64,000 nt of DNA from Bacteroidota bacterium (GTDB lineage: Bacteria; Bacteroidota; Bacteroidia; UKL13-3): positions 1-64,000 of the forward strand of contig JAAFJM010000012.1 of NCBI GenBank assembly GCA_013298895.1. Reading direction: 5' to 3'. The notes under the pieces were generated by a model. It did not search any database. It saw only the letters and a list, made by a program, of their open reading frames with translations, and was not told the origin of the DNA. Both the position numbers and the translations under genes were made by a program. Positions 5,260 to 24,049 of the stretch are shown one piece after another (the stretch's first letter is position 1; each line of letters starts with the position of its first letter).

Positions 5260-5628
5260 ATGAGAGACGCTGGAGTTTATACGCAACTTTGGAAAAAATA
5301 TTTACCCGTTATTAGACTTTTATTAAAAAAAACAGTTGATAGCGATCAAAAACTTCAAATTTATAAGCACGAGTTTGTATCTACTGGAGCAAAAAACAAA
5401 TTGGGTTATATTTTTAACTTAGAAATTGTAAACGGTAAAGCTATTAACAAATCAAATACTTTGGCTTCTTCTTTTGACTTATTGAATGTTTTAAATGAAA
5501 ACGAGTTAACAGCAGAGTGGCTGAAAGGAAAAAATGTTAAAATTAGTGTAAATAAAGCATGCGAATTATCTTTACAACTAATAAATAAGACTGAAGAAGC
5601 ACAACAATTAGAAGTTGTCAACGCGTAA
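5260..5628 (+). CDS. Conserved hypothetical cytoplasmic protein, 122 aa
   Basis: The protein starts MRDAGVYTQLWKKYLPVIRLLLKK, has no signal peptide or membrane segment, and appears to be a small alpha+beta domain with an N-terminal amphipathic helix. I recall similar short proteins with an N-terminal LWxKYLPVIRxLLKK pattern in Bacteroidota, but no function is known. It stands alone, with its own promoter and a very strong terminator, so it is an independently expressed gene. Expression could be high, judging from the exact promoter element. Confidence 0.75.
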   Translation: MRDAGVYTQLWKKYLPVIRLLLKKTVDSDQKLQIYKHEFVSTGAKNKLGYIFNLEIVNGKAINKSNTLASSFDLLNVLNENELTAEWLKGKNVKISVNKACELSLQLINKTEEAQQLEVVNA

Positions 5629-12132: not shown

Positions 12133-13011
12133 ATGTTAATTGAAGTAAGTAATTTAAATAAAAGCTACGCCAATCATCAAGCGCTTAAAAATGTGAGTAT
12201 AAATATTCCAAAGCAAAGTATTTTTGGACTACTAGGCCCAAATGGTGCTGGCAAAACGAGTTTAATACGAATTCTTACACAAATTACACAAGCCGATTCA
12301 GGTACTATCATTTTTGATGGAGAAAAACTACAAGAAAAACATATTTATCAAATAGGCTACTTACCTGAAGAAAGAGGCCTTTATAAAAAAATGCTCATAG
12401 GCGAACAGTTGCTTTATTTTGCAGAATTAAAAGGATTAAGTAAGGCAGATGCTAAAAAAAGAGTTAAATATTGGGTAGATAAGTTTGAAATAAAAGACTG
12501 GCTGAATAAAAAAGTAGAAGATTTATCAAAAGGAATGCAGCAAAAAGTGCAATTTATTGCCAGTATATTACACCATCCAAAGCTCATTATTTTAGACGAG
12601 CCTTTTAGTGGCTTTGACCCACAAAATGCACAATTACTTGTGGAAGAAATTCTTAAGCTTAGAGACGAAGGAAGTACAATTATTTTTTCAACTCACAGAA
12701 TGGATACCGTAGAAAAACTTTGTGACAATATAGCCATGATTAATAAAAGTGAAGTGGTTTTAAGTGGCAATAAGACTGCTATCAAACAAAGTTTTAGTTT
12801 AGACGAGTATAGCATTCAATTTAACGGAAACTTGGAGTCATCAAGCAATTATGAAATAATAAGTCAACATCAAAATGAGGCTATTATTAAGATAATTGGA
12901 TCTAAACAAAATACTATTCATTCATTAAATACCCAATTAGAACTGATTTCGTTTATGCCACAAATTGCTAGTATGGAAGATATTTTTATAAAAATGGTAA
13001 ATAAGGTTTAA
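12133..13011 (+). CDS. ABC transporter ATP-binding protein (ABC-2/NatA type)
   Basis: The nucleotide-binding domain has Walker A (GLLGPNGAGKTS), a Q-loop region, the signature as LSKGMQQKVQ, Walker B (LIILDEPFSGFDP) and the H-loop (STHRMD). After residue about 215 a C-terminal extension of the DUF4162 type follows. In Bacteroidota such subunits usually sit beside an ABC-2 permease with a long extracytoplasmic loop. Here no permease is adjacent; the matching kind of permease is at 48441-49766. The exported substrate is unknown. Confidence 0.9.
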   Translation: MLIEVSNLNKSYANHQALKNVSINIPKQSIFGLLGPNGAGKTSLIRILTQITQADSGTIIFDGEKLQEKHIYQIGYLPEERGLYKKMLIGEQLLYFAELKGLSKADAKKRVKYWVDKFEIKDWLNKKVEDLSKGMQQKVQFIASILHHPKLIILDEPFSGFDPQNAQLLVEEILKLRDEGSTIIFSTHRMDTVEKLCDNIAMINKSEVVLSGNKTAIKQSFSLDEYSIQFNGNLESSSNYEIISQHQNEAIIKIIGSKQNTIHSLNTQLELISFMPQIASMEDIFIKMVNKV

Positions 13012-14593: not shown

Positions 14594-16405
14594 ATGCAAA
14601 AAATCAGAAACATAGCTATTATTGCCCACGTAGATCACGGGAAAACTACATTGGTTGATAAAATTTTACACCAAACTCAACTTTTCCGCGAAAACCAAGA
14701 AAAAGGCGAATTAATACTAGATAATAACGATTTAGAGCGCGAACGTGGTATTACCATTTTAGCAAAAAACATTTCAGTACAGTACAAAGGTTACAAAATT
14801 AATATCATTGATACTCCTGGTCACGCGGATTTTGGTGGCGAGGTAGAGCGTGTATTAAACATGGCCGATGGTGTATTATTATTAGTAGATGCGTTTGAAG
14901 GCCCAATGCCTCAAACTCGTTTTGTGTTACAAAAAGCTTTAGCATTAGGTAAAAAACCTATTGTAGTTATTAACAAAGTAGATAAACCAAACTGCCGTCC
15001 AGATGAAATTCATGATGCAGTTTTTGATTTATTCTTTAACTTAGAAGCTAACGAAGAGCAATTAGATTTCCATACCATTTATGGTAGTTCAAAACAAGGT
15101 TGGATGGGTAGAGATTGGAAAAATCCTACCGAAGATTTCACTTCGTTGTTAGATGATATTATTTCAGAAATTCCTGAGCCTCATGTAGAAGAAGGAACTT
15201 TACAAATGCAAATTACTTCATTAGATTATTCTTCATTTACAGGAAGGATTGCTATTGGACGTATTTTACGCGGAAGTGTTAAAGTTAATCAACCTATTAG
15301 TTTAGTAAAACGCGATGGCAGCATTCAAAAATCAAGAGTAAAAGAACTTTACGTTTTTGAAGGTTTAGGTAAAATGAAAGTTGAAGAAGTTGGTGCTGGC
15401 GATATTTGTGCAATTATGGGTATTGAAGGTTTTGAAATTGGTGATACCGTTGCTGATTTTGAAAATCCTGAAGGCTTAACTCCAATTAATATTGACGAAC
15501 CAACCATGAACATGTTGTTCTGTATCAATAACTCACCTTTCTTTGGTAAAGAAGGTAAATTTGTTACCTCTCGCCATTTACGTGACCGTTTGTTCCGCGA
15601 ATTAGAGAAAAACTTAGCTTTAAGAGTAGAAGAAACTAACCAAGCTGATTCGTATTTAGTATTTGGTAGAGGTATTCTTCACTTATCGGTTTTAATTGAA
15701 ACCATGAGACGCGAAGGCTACGAATTACAAGTTGGTCAACCACAAGTAATTGTAAAAGAAATTGATGGTGTTAAATGTGAACCAATGGAGATTTTAACCG
15801 TTGATGTTCCATTAGAAGTATCAGGAAAAGTAATTGAATTGGTAAGCCAACGTAAAGGTGATATGATAATTATGGAACCTAAAGGCGATTTAACGCATTT
15901 AGAATTCGAAATTCCATCACGTGGTATTATCGGTTTGCGAAATAATGTATTAACAGCTACAGCTGGTGAAGCAATTATGGCTCATCGTTTCAAAGCTTTT
16001 GAACCTTGGAAAGGTCCTATACCTTCGCGTTTAGCTGGCGTAATGATTAGCGGTGAACAAGGAACTGCAATTGCTTATTCAATTGATAAATTACAAGATA
16101 GAGGTGATTTCTTTGTTGAAGCTGGTGATGAAATTTACATGGGTCAAATTATTGGCGAAAATAACCGTCATGACGATTTAGTAGTAAATATAACCAAAGA
16201 GAAAAAATTAACCAATATGCGTGCGTCTGGTAGCGATGATAAAACTAGAATTGCGCCAAAAATTAATTTTTCATTAGAAGAATGTATGGAATATATTCAA
16301 GGCGATGAGTATGTAGAAATTACTCCTAAATCATTACGTTTACGTAAAATTCATTTGAATGAATTAGATAGAAAACGTTTCAAACAATCAACTGGAATGC
16401 AATAA
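14594..16405 (+). CDS. typA: Ribosome-associated GTPase TypA/BipA
   Basis: This translational GTPase assists 50S subunit assembly and stress or cold adaptation. The G domain is complete: AHVDHGKTTL (G1), ERERGITILA (G2), DTPGHADFGGEV (G3), NKVDK (G4). EF-G-like domains II, III and V follow, with the BipA-specific C-terminal region (GLRNNVLTATAGEAIM, IGENNRHDDLVVNI). Length (603) is normal. It has its own promoter and terminator. Confidence 0.97.
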   Translation: MQKIRNIAIIAHVDHGKTTLVDKILHQTQLFRENQEKGELILDNNDLERERGITILAKNISVQYKGYKINIIDTPGHADFGGEVERVLNMADGVLLLVDAFEGPMPQTRFVLQKALALGKKPIVVINKVDKPNCRPDEIHDAVFDLFFNLEANEEQLDFHTIYGSSKQGWMGRDWKNPTEDFTSLLDDIISEIPEPHVEEGTLQMQITSLDYSSFTGRIAIGRILRGSVKVNQPISLVKRDGSIQKSRVKELYVFEGLGKMKVEEVGAGDICAIMGIEGFEIGDTVADFENPEGLTPINIDEPTMNMLFCINNSPFFGKEGKFVTSRHLRDRLFRELEKNLALRVEETNQADSYLVFGRGILHLSVLIETMRREGYELQVGQPQVIVKEIDGVKCEPMEILTVDVPLEVSGKVIELVSQRKGDMIIMEPKGDLTHLEFEIPSRGIIGLRNNVLTATAGEAIMAHRFKAFEPWKGPIPSRLAGVMISGEQGTAIAYSIDKLQDRGDFFVEAGDEIYMGQIIGENNRHDDLVVNITKEKKLTNMRASGSDDKTRIAPKINFSLEECMEYIQGDEYVEITPKSLRLRKIHLNELDRKRFKQSTGMQ

Positions 16406-16425
16406 ATATAACTTAAAAAATATCT

Positions 16426-16457
16426 AAAAGCCAAAGTATTTAAACTTTGGCTTTTTT
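16426..16457 (+). terminator. Terminator of typA
   Basis: AAAAGCCAAAGT (16426-16437) pairs with ACTTTGGCTTTT (16444-16455), followed by more T. It lies 20 bp after the stop codon. Confidence 0.92.
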
Positions 16458-16564
16458 AATGCTTAAAAAATTAATATTAAATCCATTTTAATAACCATTA
16501 GTTAACATTAAAAAAATGTTGGTCCATTTCCTTTGCTGTGTAATAAATATACAATATTATACAA

Positions 16565-19500
16565 ATGAAAGAAATGAAAAATTCTATTTTAAAAACTAAA
16601 AACTTGTCACGAACAAACGGCAAGAACAACATTTTTAAATACCTAAACCTTTTTGTTATGGTAATGATTCTTGGCGTGAATGGAGTTAAGGGGCAACAAA
16701 GTATTACAGTAAATACGGCAGTTACACAAGATTTCTCTTCAATGAGTTCAACTGCAACAGCAACTTTACCAACTGGTTTTAGAATTGGAACAGATTGGAG
16801 CTCAGGAACAACAGCAACTACACTAGCTTATGGAACTACAGGAACAGGTGCTGTTACTGGTTCATCATCTGGGGGATCAATTAATTGGGCAAATGGTGTT
16901 ACTGGTTCTTCAACTGATAGGTCATTAGGATTCCTAACTACTGGCTCTTTTACATCTCCAAGAAGCATTATATACGCCTTCACCAACAATACAGGTGCTA
17001 CGGTAACTTCAATTAATTTGTCATGGAACTATGAAAAATCAAGATCAGGTAGTAGAGCTTTTGATTGGACATTTTTTCATGGAAGCACCTCAACAGCAGC
17101 AACAGCAGCTACCTCAGGGAATCAATCTTATGCTGCTGATGCAAACAGTACTGTAATTTCTAATCCACCTCTAAGTACTTCCAAATCATTTACAATTTCA
17201 AGTTTATCTATTGCAAATGGAACGACATACTATCTAAGATGGACTTATACTGGAAATGCTGGTAGTACTAACGCACAAGGATTATCTATTGATGATTTCA
17301 GTATTACATTACCGTCATCTACAACTGCACCTCTAGCTCCAACCATGGGAACTATAACTTCCGGAAATCAACAATTATCTGTGGCATTTACTGCAGGTTC
17401 AGATGGTGGTGCTGCTATTACCAATTATGAATATTCAACTAACGGTGGTTCTTCATTTACTGCTTGCTCACCTGCACAAACAACAAGTCCAATAGTAATT
17501 ACTGGTTTAACCAATGGTACAAGTTATAATGTACAAATAAGAGCCGTAAATAGTGTAGGTTCTGGAACTGCTACATCTTCTACTGCTGCAACACCATATA
17601 CCAACCCAGCAGCTCCAACTATTAATTCAATTACTCCTGGAAACACTCAGTTATCAGTAGCATTTACTGCCGGAAATAACGGTGGATCAACCATTACAAA
17701 TTATAAATATTCAATAAATGGAGGTTCTTCATTTACCTCATGTTCTCCTGCACAAACTACTAGTCCAATAGTTATTACTGGTTTAACCAATGGAATTACA
17801 TACGATATACAAATACTTGCAGTAAACTTGGCTGGAGATGGAACAGCTTCTACAACAACATCAGCTACTCCAACGGCCCCTGTAACTCCTACTATTTCTG
17901 TTTCTGGTCCGTTAAGTGCATTAAGTACTACTTATGGTTCACCAAGTAGCACAACAAGCTTTATTGTATCAGGAGCAACTTTATCTGATGATATCTTAAT
18001 AACACCTCCAGCTGGTTATGAAATTTCAAAAACTAGCAATACTACTGGTTTTGCAGGTACTCAAACGTTAACCCAAATCGGAGGAGTTGTGAATTCTACC
18101 ACAATTTATGTTCGATTAGCAGCTACAACAGTAGTTGGAGCAAACTACAGTGGAGATATTATATTATCGAGTTCAGGAGTTAGTCCATCAGCAACTATTG
18201 CAACTTCCACAAGTAGTGTAAGTACAGCCACTTTAACCATAAGTGGATTAACTGGTGATAATAAAAACTATGATGGTGGAACTTCAGCTTCAGTTTCGGG
18301 TACAGCTAGTTTTGTAGGCTTACAAAATGGAGAGACTTTTTCAGTAGCAACAACTCCTACCTATTCATTTGCTTCAAAAAATATTGGAACAGGAATTACT
18401 ATTAACCAAAGTGTTCCTTTTGCAGCACCTAGTTCAAATTATACTGTAACACAACCAACATTAACTGCAAACATAGCTGCTATAAATTTAACAATTACTG
18501 GTGCAACAGTTACTTCAAAAAATTATGATAGATTAACAACTGCTGTAATAACTAGTGGTACATTAAATGGTATAATTGGCTCAGAAACAGTTAATGCTAC
18601 AACAGGAACATTTATTGATAAAAACGTGGGAACATCAAAAGCTGTTACGGTTTTATTATCTGGAGCAGATGCAGGAAATTATACCTTAACACAACCTAAT
18701 GTTACAGGTGATATAAATGCAATAGCCCTTACCATAACCAGTCCTGCTGTAACTTCAAAGGCCTTTGATGGAACTACTTTTGCTACCATTACCGGAACAT
18801 TATCTGGTATTATTTCACCTGATGTTGTTACTTTAGTAGGAACAGGTGTATTTGCTAGTTCAGCACAAGCAAATGGAATTTCAGTAACTTCTACCTCTAC
18901 TTTAGCAGGGGCAGATGCAGGAAATTACATTTTAACACAACCAACAGGATTAACAGGAAATATTACAGCAGCTGCACCAGCATTATTTGCATTTACAGCA
19001 GGTACAGCAGCTGTTACAAGTGGAACTCCTGCTAATTTAACAATTTCTAACTTGTCATCTGCCAATAATGGTGGAACCGTAACAATGATATCAAGTAGTA
19101 CCCCTTCAAGTGGTTATACTGGTGCATCTGGTACTAATAATGCAGGAGCAGCAGCCGTTTCTGGAGCTTTGAATACTGCAACATCAACATATTTTGAATT
19201 TACCTTAACCCCTACTTCAGGTTATTATGTAACACTTTCAAGTATTAGTTTTGGCTCACGTTGTACAGGAACAGGCCCAACTAACTTTGCTGTAAGAAGT
19301 AGTGCAGATGGCTATTCAACAAATGTAGCTACTGGAACACTGACAACTAATTCAACATGGGCATTATATAATCCAACTGTAACCTCAACTTCATCTTTAG
19401 GATCAGCGGCAATAACATTTAGAATTTATGGTTATTCAGGAACTGGTAATACTACAATAGTATGGAGAATTGATGATTTAAGTTTAGGATTAACCGTTAC

Positions 19501-21238
19501 CCAAATGGGTACTAACAATTGGTTAGGAACAAGCGATAATTTATGGAATAATGCAGCAAATTGGTCGGCAGGTGTTCCAAATGGATACAACAATATTCTT
19601 ATTTCAAGTAGTGATGTAGTTTTGAATACTAACCATACAATATACATTGGAACTAGCTTTACATTGTCTGGTACTTCTTCTTTAACTATTAATCCAACTA
19701 AAATATTAACTATTGCGGGAACAGCAGATTTTGGAGGAAAATTAGTAACTTTAAAATCAGATGATACTGGATCAGGTGCCATTGGACAAATATCTGGTAC
19801 CTTAAATAATGCAACAAATATTAATGTTGAAAGATACATACCTGCCTTTGGTTTTAAAAGATATAGATTCTTGTCTTCACCTGTTTCAACAACAGTTGCT
19901 GATTGGAGAAATGAAATATTTATTACTGGTGGAGGTGCTAGTACCGAATTTAGCCAAGTTGGTATCAACAATATCAAATCAAATGGATTAGATTGGACGT
20001 TAAGTGGCGCACCTTCTATGTTTGAATATTCGGAAAACCTAAATTCTGGTAACCTAAATTCAAGATGGGTGGCCATAACAAATGCTTCTAATTCATTAAT
20101 ACCAGGAAAAGGCTACAGAACTTATATAAGAGGAATTAGGAGTAATTCAGGGGTTCTTGATAATTCAGTAACTTCACAATCTGCTGTTACAATTACATCA
20201 GTAGGTACTTTAAATCAAGGTACATTCACCTTACCAACCACTTATAATGGCGCTGGAGATGATAATGGTTGGAATTTAATTGGAAACCCTTACCCATCAA
20301 CTATAGATTGGAGTTCAACAACAGGATGGACGAAAACAAACATTTCAAGTAATATTTATGTGTACAATCCTTCTTCAAATACTTATGGAAGTTATGACGG
20401 ATTAACTGGAACAAATGGCGTAACAAGATACATATCATCTGGACAAGGATTTTTTATAAGAACTACGGGTGCTTCTCCAATTTTAAGTTGTACGGAAAGT
20501 GTAAAATCTGTAAATACAGGAGCAGCGTTGTTTAAAACAGAAAATGCAAATACCCTAAGGATAAAGTTAGTTAAAGATATTAATAATTATGATGAAACTG
20601 TAATTCGTTTTTATGAAGGGAAAGAAAATGAATTTCGCGAAACAGATGATGTCAGAAAATTTATGAATTCAACATTAAACGTGTTCAGTACATTAGGGGA
20701 TAGTCAAAATTTAGCAGTAAACTACTTAAACCCCAATAGCTTAAAAAATTCAATTGTAAAATTAAGTGCCATAGCCAACGAATTAGGTAATTATCAACTT
20801 AATTTTTCTGGAATTAATTCGTTCTTATCAACACCATACATTACCCTAAAAGATAATTACCTAAACACTAAAATTGATTTAAAAGCTAAAGAAACTTATT
20901 CTTTTGATATAACTAATGATATTAACAGTAATAAAGATGGGCGTTTTGAAATTTCATTTACAGAAAATGTAAATTCTAATGTGGAAAATTCATCAGATGA
21001 AGTTTTTATAAATGTTTATCCTAATCCTGTTAACGATATTTTAAACATAAATATTGGTATTTCGGAAAAGAAAAATTATTCATTTACAATTTACAATGCC
21101 ACAGGTGTTGAAATTTTAAAAGGTAAATTGACAAAAAACAACAACCAAATAAATACTGAAAATTGGAATAGTGGAGTTTATATTATTAACATAAATAGTC
21201 AATTCGGAAACCCAAAAAGCATAAAGTTTATTAAATAA
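16565..21238 (+). CDS. Giant secreted multidomain adhesin-like protein with T9SS type A sorting domain
   Basis: The 1557-residue protein has a signal peptide after a basic N-terminus (LNLFVMVMILGVNGVKGQ). Visible modules: an N-terminal jelly-roll-like region to about 255; two fibronectin type III repeats (about 257-343 and 348-435); a TPTISVSG beta domain (about 440-555); three YDG-type repeats with KNYDGG, KNYDRL and KAFDGT (about 556-800); another jelly-roll-like region (803-975); and a region beginning NNWLGTSDNLWNNAANWSAGVPN. The final ~75 residues are the type A sorting domain (VYPNPVNDILNI ... YNATGVEIL ... GVYIININ ... KSIKFIK). Probably it is anchored on the cell surface and binds other cells or polymers. 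Residues are strongly skewed to Thr, Ser, Gly and Asn. Confidence 0.9.
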   Translation: MKEMKNSILKTKNLSRTNGKNNIFKYLNLFVMVMILGVNGVKGQQSITVNTAVTQDFSSMSSTATATLPTGFRIGTDWSSGTTATTLAYGTTGTGAVTGSSSGGSINWANGVTGSSTDRSLGFLTTGSFTSPRSIIYAFTNNTGATVTSINLSWNYEKSRSGSRAFDWTFFHGSTSTAATAATSGNQSYAADANSTVISNPPLSTSKSFTISSLSIANGTTYYLRWTYTGNAGSTNAQGLSIDDFSITLPSSTTAPLAPTMGTITSGNQQLSVAFTAGSDGGAAITNYEYSTNGGSSFTACSPAQTTSPIVITGLTNGTSYNVQIRAVNSVGSGTATSSTAATPYTNPAAPTINSITPGNTQLSVAFTAGNNGGSTITNYKYSINGGSSFTSCSPAQTTSPIVITGLTNGITYDIQILAVNLAGDGTASTTTSATPTAPVTPTISVSGPLSALSTTYGSPSSTTSFIVSGATLSDDILITPPAGYEISKTSNTTGFAGTQTLTQIGGVVNSTTIYVRLAATTVVGANYSGDIILSSSGVSPSATIATSTSSVSTATLTISGLTGDNKNYDGGTSASVSGTASFVGLQNGETFSVATTPTYSFASKNIGTGITINQSVPFAAPSSNYTVTQPTLTANIAAINLTITGATVTSKNYDRLTTAVITSGTLNGIIGSETVNATTGTFIDKNVGTSKAVTVLLSGADAGNYTLTQPNVTGDINAIALTITSPAVTSKAFDGTTFATITGTLSGIISPDVVTLVGTGVFASSAQANGISVTSTSTLAGADAGNYILTQPTGLTGNITAAAPALFAFTAGTAAVTSGTPANLTISNLSSANNGGTVTMISSSTPSSGYTGASGTNNAGAAAVSGALNTATSTYFEFTLTPTSGYYVTLSSISFGSRCTGTGPTNFAVRSSADGYSTNVATGTLTTNSTWALYNPTVTSTSSLGSAAITFRIYGYSGTGNTTIVWRIDDLSLGLTVTQMGTNNWLGTSDNLWNNAANWSAGVPNGYNNILISSSDVVLNTNHTIYIGTSFTLSGTSSLTINPTKILTIAGTADFGGKLVTLKSDDTGSGAIGQISGTLNNATNINVERYIPAFGFKRYRFLSSPVSTTVADWRNEIFITGGGASTEFSQVGINNIKSNGLDWTLSGAPSMFEYSENLNSGNLNSRWVAITNASNSLIPGKGYRTYIRGIRSNSGVLDNSVTSQSAVTITSVGTLNQGTFTLPTTYNGAGDDNGWNLIGNPYPSTIDWSSTTGWTKTNISSNIYVYNPSSNTYGSYDGLTGTNGVTRYISSGQGFFIRTTGASPILSCTESVKSVNTGAALFKTENANTLRIKLVKDINNYDETVIRFYEGKENEFRETDDVRKFMNSTLNVFSTLGDSQNLAVNYLNPNSLKNSIVKLSAIANELGNYQLNFSGINSFLSTPYITLKDNYLNTKIDLKAKETYSFDITNDINSNKDGRFEISFTENVNSNVENSSDEVFINVYPNPVNDILNINIGISEKKNYSFTIYNATGVEILKGKLTKNNNQINTENWNSGVYIININSQFGNPKSIKFIK
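17471..17800 (+). repeat. Near-identical FN3 repeat segments, 276-bp offset
   Basis: The stretches beginning at 17471 and 17747 (both CCTGCACAAA) match almost base for base for about 50 bp (encoding PAQTTSPIVITGLTNG), exactly 92 codons apart. The two FN3 domains are thus a recent in-frame duplication. Confidence 0.75.
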
Positions 21239-21249
21239 ATTAAAAATAT

Positions 21250-21275
21250 GCGGCTGTAAAATAATTTACAGCCGC
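21250..21275 (+). terminator. GC-rich hairpin between the adhesin and the small secreted protein
   Basis: GCGGCTGTAAA (21250-21260) and its exact complement (21265-21275) form an 11-bp stem with a 4-nt loop, 12 bp after the adhesin stop. It is followed by A rather than T, so it may protect an mRNA end or terminate weakly instead of being a classic terminator. Confidence 0.5.
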
Positions 21276-21294
21276 AAAAAAATCAAAATCCAAA

Positions 21295-21528
21295 ATGAAA
21301 AATAAAAATAGAATTTTAAGCACTTTAATCATATTATTTACAATGACATGTTCATTAAATATAAATGCTCAGCCAGGATCAACTACAACAAGTGGAGACC
21401 CTTTTGGAGATGAGCCTCAAGATGTTCCAATAAATCATAATGTATTATTATTAACAATTGCAGGTGCAATTTATGGACTAAAAATCAAAGCTTACAAATT
21501 AAAGCAAAACTCACACAAACTTGAATAA
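21295..21528 (+). CDS. Small secreted or membrane-anchored protein, 77 aa
   Basis: A signal peptide (NRILSTLIILFTMTCSLNINAQ) precedes a short acidic, Pro/Gly-rich linker (GDPFGDEPQDVPINHN), then one hydrophobic segment (VLLLTIAGAIYGLKI) and a basic tail (KAYKLKQN). The tripartite end, a P-I box, hydrophobic helix and basic tail, resembles the PID-CTERM type of short Bacteroidota protein-sorting signal, although the PID box reads PIN here. Its function is unknown. It follows the adhesin by 56 bp with a hairpin between. Confidence 0.65.
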   Translation: MKNKNRILSTLIILFTMTCSLNINAQPGSTTTSGDPFGDEPQDVPINHNVLLLTIAGAIYGLKIKAYKLKQNSHKLE

Positions 21529-21610
21529 TGAATTGTGTGTAAATTAGGAAGAAGAATTAAAAAAAAATATAAATAAATATATTTATATGTATATATTTAC
21601 TGCCATTATT

Positions 21611-22201
21611 ATGTTAGGCAATAGAGATATACTTTTTTTTACTAAGTTAAATAGGATAAAAGTTAAATCCGTATTTAAAGATTTAACTGTTTCAACAATA
21701 ATGCTTGGTTTATTAATGGCTTTTACTAAAATGGTAAAGTTTGTTACACTTTTTATACAAGAATTTAACTCAATTAGAGAGCAATTTTCGAATGAAAAAG
21801 AATCTATTGATAGGGGTTCAAGCTATTTAGTTAATACAATTAATGGTAAAAAGTGGGAGCACAATTATGAACTTAATAATACTGCAGAAAATCTTAGTAA
21901 TCAAATTCAAAGTAATCAGTTAATGTTCTTTATAATCCTAATTATTTCACTTTTAATTTTTGTAGCTTTATACTTTGCAATTGATTTTTTAATTGAATAT
22001 ACCAACAAATTTAAACCTTGGAGTATTGCATTATTACTCATTACATTTGTTTGTAGTGTATTTTACCTAGAAATAACGGATTTAAAAGAAACTGGAAATG
22101 GAATTTGCTTTATGTTTACTACCATGATAAGTATTATTGCTGGAATAATTCTAATTGGCTATACACTTATTTTTCCTAACTATAGGCATGTAGAAGAATA
22201 A
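21611..22201 (+). CDS. Four-helix membrane protein of unknown function, first tandem paralog
   Basis: I do not recognise the family. Four hydrophobic segments are visible: STIMLGLLMAFTKMVKFVT, MFFIILIISLLIFVALYFA, SIALLLITFVCSVFYLEI and FMFTTMISIIAGIILIGYT. A charged loop of about 60 residues lies between helices 1 and 2. Strong blocks shared with the next gene are VFKDLTV, NKFKPWSI and TDLKETGNGICFMFTT. The ATG at 21611 was chosen because it gives 196 residues, the same length as the paralog and with matching N-terminal spacing; an ATG at 21587 is also open. Codon use is as AT-rich as its neighbours. Confidence 0.75.
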   Translation: MLGNRDILFFTKLNRIKVKSVFKDLTVSTIMLGLLMAFTKMVKFVTLFIQEFNSIREQFSNEKESIDRGSSYLVNTINGKKWEHNYELNNTAENLSNQIQSNQLMFFIILIISLLIFVALYFAIDFLIEYTNKFKPWSIALLLITFVCSVFYLEITDLKETGNGICFMFTTMISIIAGIILIGYTLIFPNYRHVEE

Positions 22202-22265
22202 TCAAGTACAATTTAAAGTTAAATGTATTGCAAATGGTATTTTTTTTACTAGTTTTACCACAAAA

Positions 22266-22856
22266 ATGAACAACTTAAATTCCAATAGTGCCACTCATAG
22301 TGTTAAAACAACAACTAAATCTTTCTTTAAAGATCTTACTGTTGCTTCGCTTATGCTTGGTCTACTTATTGCTTTTAATAAATTAATAAAATTTACAACT
22401 TTATTTATTCAAGAGTTTTCTAAATTATTTTCAGATTTAAATGCTGAAAGAGATATTATTGAGAGAGGATCTAAATTCCTATCAACTAACAATACAAACA
22501 AAAATATTGTTGAACATAGCCATGATTTAAATATCAATGCCGAGTTTTTAAGTAGCCAAATAAGTAACAGTCAAATGCTCATTTTTGTGGTATTTTTTTT
22601 ATTTATAGTTGCTTTCATTTTGTTATACCTTGCTATTGATTACCTAATGGAATACATCAATAAATTCAAACCTTGGAGCATTATTTTATTATTGGTAACT
22701 TTTGTCAGTACAGTATTTTATATTGAATTAACAGATTTAAAAGAAACTGGTAATGGTATTTGTTTTATGTTCACTACTCTTATAAGTATTATTACAGGCA
22801 TCATTTTAGTTGGCTATACAATGATTTTTCCTAATTATGTTAAATCAGAACAATAA
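22266..22856 (+). CDS. Four-helix membrane protein of unknown function, second tandem paralog
   Basis: This 196-residue protein is collinear with the preceding one, sharing FFKDLTVASLMLGLL, KFTTLFIQEF, INKFKPWSI, ELTDLKETGNGICFMFTT and IFPNY. The four membrane helices are conserved, while the loop between helices 1 and 2 has diverged (DLNAERDIIERGSKFL here). The pair is a gene duplication and the products may form a heteromer. It lies 64 bp after its sibling and 68 bp before the periplasmic-binding-like gene. The near-invariant TDLKETGNGICFMFTT block suggests a functional core close to the membrane. Confidence 0.75.
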   Translation: MNNLNSNSATHSVKTTTKSFFKDLTVASLMLGLLIAFNKLIKFTTLFIQEFSKLFSDLNAERDIIERGSKFLSTNNTNKNIVEHSHDLNINAEFLSSQISNSQMLIFVVFFLFIVAFILLYLAIDYLMEYINKFKPWSIILLLVTFVSTVFYIELTDLKETGNGICFMFTTLISIITGIILVGYTMIFPNYVKSEQ

Positions 22857-22924
22857 ACTTTATACTTTTTAAAACAAGGTATACAATTACATTTTCTAAT
22901 TGATTTTTGTTTTATTTGCATTTG

Positions 22925-24049
22925 ATGAACAAAACCTTACTAATCATTTTATTTTTTATTTCAATAAAACTCATAGCACAAAGCAAAGATCCAATAAAAA
23001 TTGCTTTGCTTATGCCTTTTTGTGCTAAAAATATCAATCAAAATGCTAATCATAAAAATGCAGATTTGGGAACTGCATGCCGCGAATATTATCAAGGATT
23101 ACTGATAGCTGCGGATAGTTTAAAAAATGCAGGGAATAATATAGAAATTACTGTATTTGATACCGAAAGAGATACTGTAAAATTTAAAAAAATATTACAA
23201 AATGATGCGGTATTAAATGCTGATTTAATAATTGGACCAGTAGTAAAAGAAGGTCAAATTATGATGCAAAACTACAAAAACAAAAAAAACGCGTATCACC
23301 TTTCTCCCCTATTTACATTTACAAAAACAAAAATAAATGATGCTAAGTCTATTTCTGCTTATCCTGACTTGAATTATTATGCAGAATATTTGGTTAATTA
23401 TTTAAACAAAATAGATGCAGCCGGTAATTTAATTGTAGTATATGGAAAAGATGGATCAGACAGGATGCTATCAAACTATTTAAAGCAAATAGTTAAACCA
23501 GAAATGGATTTAAATTTAAAGCATGCAGATATTACCAAACCAAACGATGTGTTACTTCAATTTGATCGTATCAAAAATAATTATGTTTTTCTAGCTTGTG
23601 ATGATGAATCGCAAATCAATTCAATTTTAAAAACCATAGCCGATACTAATAATAATTTTAAGGAAACAACTTTTGGGTTAAGAAAAATAATTGATTTTAA
23701 AGATTTAAACTTTGAGGATTGGGAAGCAACAAACCTACATATCATTACCCCTATTTACATAAACTATAATGATAGTTTAACAAAAAAATTTATTACTACT
23801 TACCGTAATTATCATGAAACAGAACCTAACGAATATGCTTTTGTTGGTTATGATCAATTTATTATGACAGTAAGTAGTTATATTCAAACTAAGGGAACTT
23901 TTAGCAAACTAAATGAGCTAAAACCTTTTGATTTATTAGCTAACAAGTATTTACTAAAAGAAAAAACAGCCTTACCTGGTATTCAAAACTCGTTTTTACA
24001 TATACTAAAATATACACCACAAGGTATGAAGGAAGTAAGTTGGAGGTAA
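22925..24049 (+). CDS. Secreted type 1 periplasmic-binding-protein-like protein
   Basis: A signal peptide (NKTLLIILFFISIKLIAQ) is followed by KIALLMPFCAKN and then ADLIIGPVVKEGQIMMQNY, the pattern of the two-lobed fold seen in amino-acid-binding proteins and in LpoA-type factors. Bacteroidota commonly have such proteins fused to LysM domains; no LysM is seen here. No ABC permease is near, so transport is unlikely to be its role; sensing or a cell-wall role is an inference. The ATG at 22925 gives the better signal peptide than a codon 18 bp upstream. It ends flush against the convergent DUF4197 gene. Confidence 0.75.
   Translation: MNKTLLIILFFISIKLIAQSKDPIKIALLMPFCAKNINQNANHKNADLGTACREYYQGLLIAADSLKNAGNNIEITVFDTERDTVKFKKILQNDAVLNADLIIGPVVKEGQIMMQNYKNKKNAYHLSPLFTFTKTKINDAKSISAYPDLNYYAEYLVNYLNKIDAAGNLIVVYGKDGSDRMLSNYLKQIVKPEMDLNLKHADITKPNDVLLQFDRIKNNYVFLACDDESQINSILKTIADTNNNFKETTFGLRKIIDFKDLNFEDWEATNLHIITPIYINYNDSLTKKFITTYRNYHETEPNEYAFVGYDQFIMTVSSYIQTKGTFSKLNELKPFDLLANKYLLKEKTALPGIQNSFLHILKYTPQGMKEVSWR

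Follow-up and report, generated by a model that had tools for sequence, protein, structure and literature searches.

The stretch of DNA analyzed here, referred to as the window (64,000 nucleotides from a Bacteroidota bacterium, assembly GCA_013298895.1, contig JAAFJM010000012.1, positions 1 to 64,000), carries a tandem pair of genes for four-helix membrane proteins, the stable partners of which are the upstream gene for a type IX secretion system (T9SS) cargo protein and a PID-CTERM microprotein gene, and not the periplasmic-binding-protein-like (PBP-like) gene that follows. The direct observations are the order of the genes and its reappearance in distant relatives, the co-divergence of the genes as a block and a strict co-occurrence of PID-CTERM proteins with exosortases in a sample of the phylum. 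The reading that is favoured, with somewhat more confidence than doubt, is that the pair are dedicated inner-membrane accessories of a cassette consisting of a giant T9SS cargo protein, a PID-CTERM microprotein and the four-helix protein. An earlier sequence-only reading of this DNA had placed the system at 21611–24049; these coordinates are correct, but the cassette starts upstream of 21611, at 16565. The genomes compared are denoted G000 (that of the window), G001 and so on, with C for contigs and L for loci. The features are as follows.

16565..21238, + strand: giant secreted protein of 1557 aa with a signal-peptide region, Fn3 and YDG repeats and a C-terminal T9SS type A sorting domain (TIGR04183, PF18962, PF18657, PF00041)
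21249..21276, + strand: inverted repeat with a stem of 12 between the stop codon of the giant gene and the microprotein, read from the sequence (G006 has a stem of 11 in the same place)
21295..21528, + strand: PID-CTERM-like microprotein (P0004) of 77 aa, assigned by position and by similarity to PID-CTERM proteins of G006, G009, G003 and G004
21611..22201, + strand: four-helix membrane protein, copy 1, 196 aa (BLASTP, hydropathy, alignment)
22266..22856, + strand: four-helix membrane protein, copy 2, 196 aa (BLASTP, hydropathy, alignment, structure model)
22925..24049 (from ATG), + strand: type I periplasmic-binding-fold protein of 374 aa (Foldseek), judged not to be part of the cassette

The two membrane proteins are indeed paralogs of equal length, as had been noted from the sequence, with 105 of 183 aligned positions identical (57%, BLASTP E 2e-77); no further copies were found in the G000 assembly, and copy 1 has an alternative start at 21587 that would extend it to 204 aa. 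The nearly invariant core that had been described holds within the window, where the block TDLKETGNGICFMFTT is the same letter for letter in both copies, whereas across seven homologues from the genus the alignment reduces it to D-L...G-N...F-x-F-T. Hydropathy indicates four membrane segments in each copy, the first two of which are separated by a single loop of about 47 residues, and an AlphaFold model of copy 2, of mediocre confidence (mean pLDDT 63.8), agrees in showing four long helices with the longer loop after the first. This model has no match among solved PDB folds (best E 2.5), and scans with Pfam and NCBIfam models gave sub-threshold matches only, with no match of the pair to a known transporter or membrane-protein family. 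Identification as exosortases was rejected, since no TIGR04178 or related exosortase model matches and the alignments show no conserved C/R/H set.

The giant protein upstream is assigned to the T9SS type A cargo by TIGR04183, which matches residues 1484–1557 (E 4e-11, 42.7 bits against a cut-off of 23), and by PF18962 (50.1 against a cut-off of 27); T9SS genes are abundant in the same genome, which is of the Bacteroidota type. The microprotein gene at 21295–21528, not listed in the sequence-only reading, encodes what reads as a signal peptide, about 20 residues up to the motif, a hydrophobic helix and a basic tail. Its motif is a degenerate PIN rather than PID, the D having been lost, and the protein has no match in NCBIfam, including NF046080, the PID-CTERM cut-off of which it does not reach. 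A tiny gene of 59–73 aa occupies the same slot between a T9SS type A cargo gene and the membrane gene in G006, G009, G003 and G004; with NF046080 the proteins from G009 and G003 score above the cut-off, that from G004 reaches 24.3 against 26 and that from G006 18.6. Two PID-CTERM genes with an intact motif are found elsewhere in G000, exactly at contig ends (the end of G000:C45, 230115–230186, and the start of G000:C17, 3–71), as is also seen in G006 (C7 and C18); tails of PID-CTERM/T9SS genes that are nearly identical to each other may interrupt assembly at such places. Inverted repeats between the cargo stop codon and the PID-CTERM start, often of the ACCATAG type, also occur in the genus loci L037, L038, L047 and L055; in a raw count, stems of at least 8 are present in 18 of 53 intergenic regions, and a hairpin is not claimed as a general feature of this junction.

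The neighbourhood of PID-CTERM genes was counted at the level of the phylum in 95 distinct open reading frames chosen by motif pattern from the loci examined. The same-strand upstream neighbour ends in a T9SS type A domain in 72 of 81 cases (48 of 53 and 24 of 28), counts that are not independent because the PID-CTERM loci are related to each other; the P values obtained for this neighbourhood and for the co-occurrence with exosortases are too favourable for that reason. The sample leaves out the looser relatives, namely the window and G006 copies, L094, L125 and L126; the last three, which precede an exosortase gene and on inspection have no T9SS gene directly upstream, would lower the count. 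Six of the 95 have no upstream gene on the contig, and one shared upstream gene, in L112, was counted once. An opposite-strand upstream frame was present in nine cases, two of which (L041 and L065) were reassigned from a spurious frame to the T9SS frame; if the remaining seven (L044, L076, L084, L091, L136, L161 and L173) are taken as misses, the count becomes 72 of 88. As a control, a downstream gene was available for 92 of the 95; with 13 C-termini lying outside the locus, 78 distinct proteins were scanned. Judged by the 25 commonest families listed, at most two of them have a T9SS tail, which is therefore an upper bound, and four are exosortases. Genomes of the genus contain from 75 to at least 150 T9SS tails, which, if each genome is taken to have about 3000 genes, puts chance adjacency near 5%. 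The piece between the signal peptide and the PID motif is mostly 11–21 residues long (median 13, n = 88, using a simple A-Q type cleavage rule for the signal peptide) and is often acidic.

The order of cargo, PID-CTERM and four-helix genes is found in the window, in G006, G009, G003 and G004, and also in G059, G065, G069 and G024 of another genus, where a four-helix gene of 180–203 aa takes the same slot of PID-CTERM loci. Pairwise identity of these proteins with the window copy is only 17–19%; a profile comparison (hhalign E 6.5e-6 over 158 columns, probability 84.9) provides moderate evidence, from profiles of seven and four sequences, that the two sets are homologous. Profile searching extended the family to G018, G080 and G011, and in G060 and G068 the corresponding slot holds broken genes. 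In total, members that are intact or cut by a contig end are present in 12 of 64 family genomes (E below 1e-37, by a profile built from 11 of these same genomes), and the two with broken genes bring the number to 14; weak matches in G014, G017, G030, G031 and G085 were not counted. A scan of genome contigs yielded no loci beyond the four genus loci already found, and none of the confident matches in the 64 family genomes was seen outside a T9SS locus. By model match, a T9SS type A cargo gene adjoins the four-helix gene, directly or across the PID-CTERM gene, in 13 of the 14 genomes, and in the remaining one, G080, the contig ends inside the four-helix gene.

These loci also bear on the possibility, which deserves to be taken seriously although we would not expect it to prevail, that the four-helix proteins act only for T9SS cargo, perhaps regulating it at the inner membrane or partnering it in an immunity-like way, while the PID-CTERM gene, too, travels with cargo genes but as a separate passenger. 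Such an arrangement would agree with G011 and G018, where the four-helix gene lies beside a T9SS cargo gene with no PID-CTERM gene, so that the four-helix gene does not depend on the microprotein, and with the phylum as a whole, where PID-CTERM genes trail cargo genes without a four-helix gene, which most PID-CTERM loci lack. However, in 11 of the 14 four-helix loci, the degenerate window copy included, the gene immediately upstream is a PID-CTERM gene. In L052:1654-2169 (G009:C2), cargo and PID-CTERM genes are followed by another membrane protein, 171 aa long, which has no convincing alignment to the four-helix family.

Comparison with G006 revealed a mosaic pattern of divergence. Nucleotide identity is 92–97% in most bins of the middle part of the cargo gene (85–86% in two bins) and 90–97% from the PBP-like gene onward (83% in one bin), whereas a block of low identity begins within the cargo gene at about 19600 and ends with copy 2 at about 22900, with values of 77–84% in the cargo part and 57–85% after it; the lowest bin, at 57%, covers the microprotein, and the divergence ends just before the PBP-like gene. 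Most of the block is at 67–85%, compared with 93–97% for the majority of flanking bins. The dS values are 2.7 for the microprotein and 1.4 and 1.8 for the two membrane genes, against 0.43 for the whole cargo gene and 0.14–0.44 for the other genes compared. The simplest reading of the low identity together with the raised dS is that a joint move or a joint divergence affected the C-terminal part of the cargo along with the microprotein and the two membrane genes, and the elevation common to the microprotein and the membrane genes argues further against service to the cargo alone. At its N-terminal end (window 16400–17300), the giant gene has 45–72% nucleotide identity to G006 and is as divergent as in the C-terminal block; the gene is thus itself a mosaic, its two ends divergent and its middle 85–97% identical.

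Mosaicism and fast divergence, together with the lack of a fit to any known family, would also be expected if the pair were a small transporter or a holin-like protein hitchhiking with recombination at giant adhesin genes in variable surface loci. This is considered unlikely, since the place beside a T9SS cargo gene has been kept over three genera at less than 20% identity and since dN/dS across the microprotein and both membrane genes is 0.10–0.12, which argues for a constrained function of the membrane genes.

The earlier suggestion of an undescribed envelope module is retained for the paralog pair, while its grouping with the PBP-like gene was rejected. The PBP-like protein has a type I binding fold according to Foldseek (E 2.5e-9 to 4q6b and E 1.1e-8 to LpoA, 3ckm; model pLDDT 63), with only a sub-threshold Peripla_BP_6 match in Pfam (E 0.11) and nothing informative from a phmmer search of PDB sequences; it resembles the LpoA C-domain and LivK-like type I binding proteins in fold, but its gene lies outside the cassette. 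An ABC-type ATPase-like gene is present at 12133–13011, 9.9 kb upstream. Among ten genomes of the genus, the PBP-like gene occurs in nine, being missing from G002 (an assembly that is 88% complete), and the four-helix family in five, yet the two adjoin on the same strand only in G000 and its very close relative G006, the PBP-like proteins of which are 95% identical; the proposed trio fails on this ground. The membrane gene and the PBP-like gene are on different contigs in G003, G004 and G009, the PBP-like gene occurs without the pair in G001, G005, G007 and G008, and its neighbours elsewhere in the genus vary (a hexapeptide transferase, a Vut_1 transporter, LptF/G, a T9SS protein and an ABC exporter). 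A sensing module of the pair and the PBP-like protein, as first suggested, is already largely refuted and highly improbable, as the two adjoin on one strand in G000 and G006 but never in the other genomes carrying either gene, and nucleotide identity to G006 jumps from about 76% to 95% at the boundary of copy 2 with the PBP-like gene. A small protein without a Pfam match at window 5260–5628 is 93% identical to one in G003 (L026:7802-8215), where it lies beside the PBP-like gene.

Returning to the reading of the pair as accessories of the cassette, the PID-CTERM proteins connect it to exosortases. All 57 genomes with PID-CTERM among 395 genomes of the phylum carry an exosortase, against 84 of the 338 without PID-CTERM; PID-CTERM is nevertheless no universal answer to the question of substrates, because these 84 of the 141 exosortase genomes must have others. 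Within the family, an XrtX/XrtF-like gene is present in 32 of 36 genomes with PID-CTERM and in 12 of 26 without it. The four exceptions at the threshold of the XrtX model are G002, G066 and G080, which are assemblies of about 210–480 contigs, and G014, which is 96% complete. These exceptions weigh against the favoured reading, as do the loss of the D and the missing NCBIfam score of the window microprotein, the four-helix genes of G011 and G018 that have no PID-CTERM gene, and the many PID-CTERM loci that lack a four-helix gene. The genome of the window has a single XrtX/XrtF-like exosortase (G000:C11:5957-6472), whose motifs EGCNG, NIIRLY and LFHTY presumably contain the catalytic Cys, Arg and His.

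For the molecular action of the four-helix pair, we infer the following scheme. The giant protein would be exported by Sec and then by the T9SS, while the microprotein, also exported by Sec, would stay anchored in the inner membrane through a C-terminal helix. The single exosortase of the genome may then cut the microprotein near the PID motif and thereby free or transfer a short, mostly acidic peptide of about 11–20 residues. The four-helix protein might hold the microprotein or the cargo sorting domain at the inner membrane and could confer pairing specificity on each cassette; it would act as a dimer, or in this genome possibly as a heteromer formed by copies 1 and 2.

The cassette microprotein resembles the known system of PID-CTERM (NF046080) and exosortase X/XrtF (NF046081, TIGR04128) in position and architecture. 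In L082, L083 and L085, and likewise in L161, an XrtX-like exosortase gene comes directly after the PID-CTERM gene, whereas in the cassette the next gene encodes the unnamed four-helix protein; a T9SS cargo gene is located just upstream of the PID-CTERM/exosortase genes in L085 and, weakly, in L082. The giant bears the sorting domain of T9SS type A cargo (TIGR04183), with the difference that cargo genes are here coupled to PID-CTERM microproteins. The four-helix proteins recall membrane proteins associated with XrtF/XrtX, such as Fjoh_1449 beside xrtF, in that a small protein accompanies an exosortase-type sorting locus; however, they match no such model, and the XrtF-like locus of G000 has a separate companion protein, elsewhere from the pair.

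According to PMC10936215, surface colonization by Flavobacterium johnsoniae requires Fjoh_1449 and xrtF as well as T9SS genes, being reduced in both xrtF and T9SS mutants, and the same paper calls the substrates of Flavobacterium XrtF an open question. No mention of a link between PID-CTERM/exosortase and T9SS cargo was found in searches of open-licence PMC papers. The cassette context points to a connection between these two Bacteroidota protein-export pathways: PID-CTERM microproteins beside T9SS cargo genes are concrete candidate substrates for XrtF-related exosortases, their adjacency makes the connection of the two pathways testable, and the four-helix family is an additional unnamed component with a defined gene context. 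A bolder version, offered tentatively and on balance doubtful, is that in Bacteroidota a single route of surface display has the exosortase as one half and type IX secretion as the other; each giant T9SS cargo of the set would be paired with its own PID-CTERM microprotein, the short exosortase-released peptide of which would anchor, tag or escort the cargo, with the four-helix proteins as inner-membrane matchmakers.

Tandem PID-CTERM genes were also encountered. In L112 (G073:C19) there are three, with a T9SS tail fragment of 93 aa between two of them, an arrangement that looks like a decayed duplication of a cargo/PID-CTERM unit.
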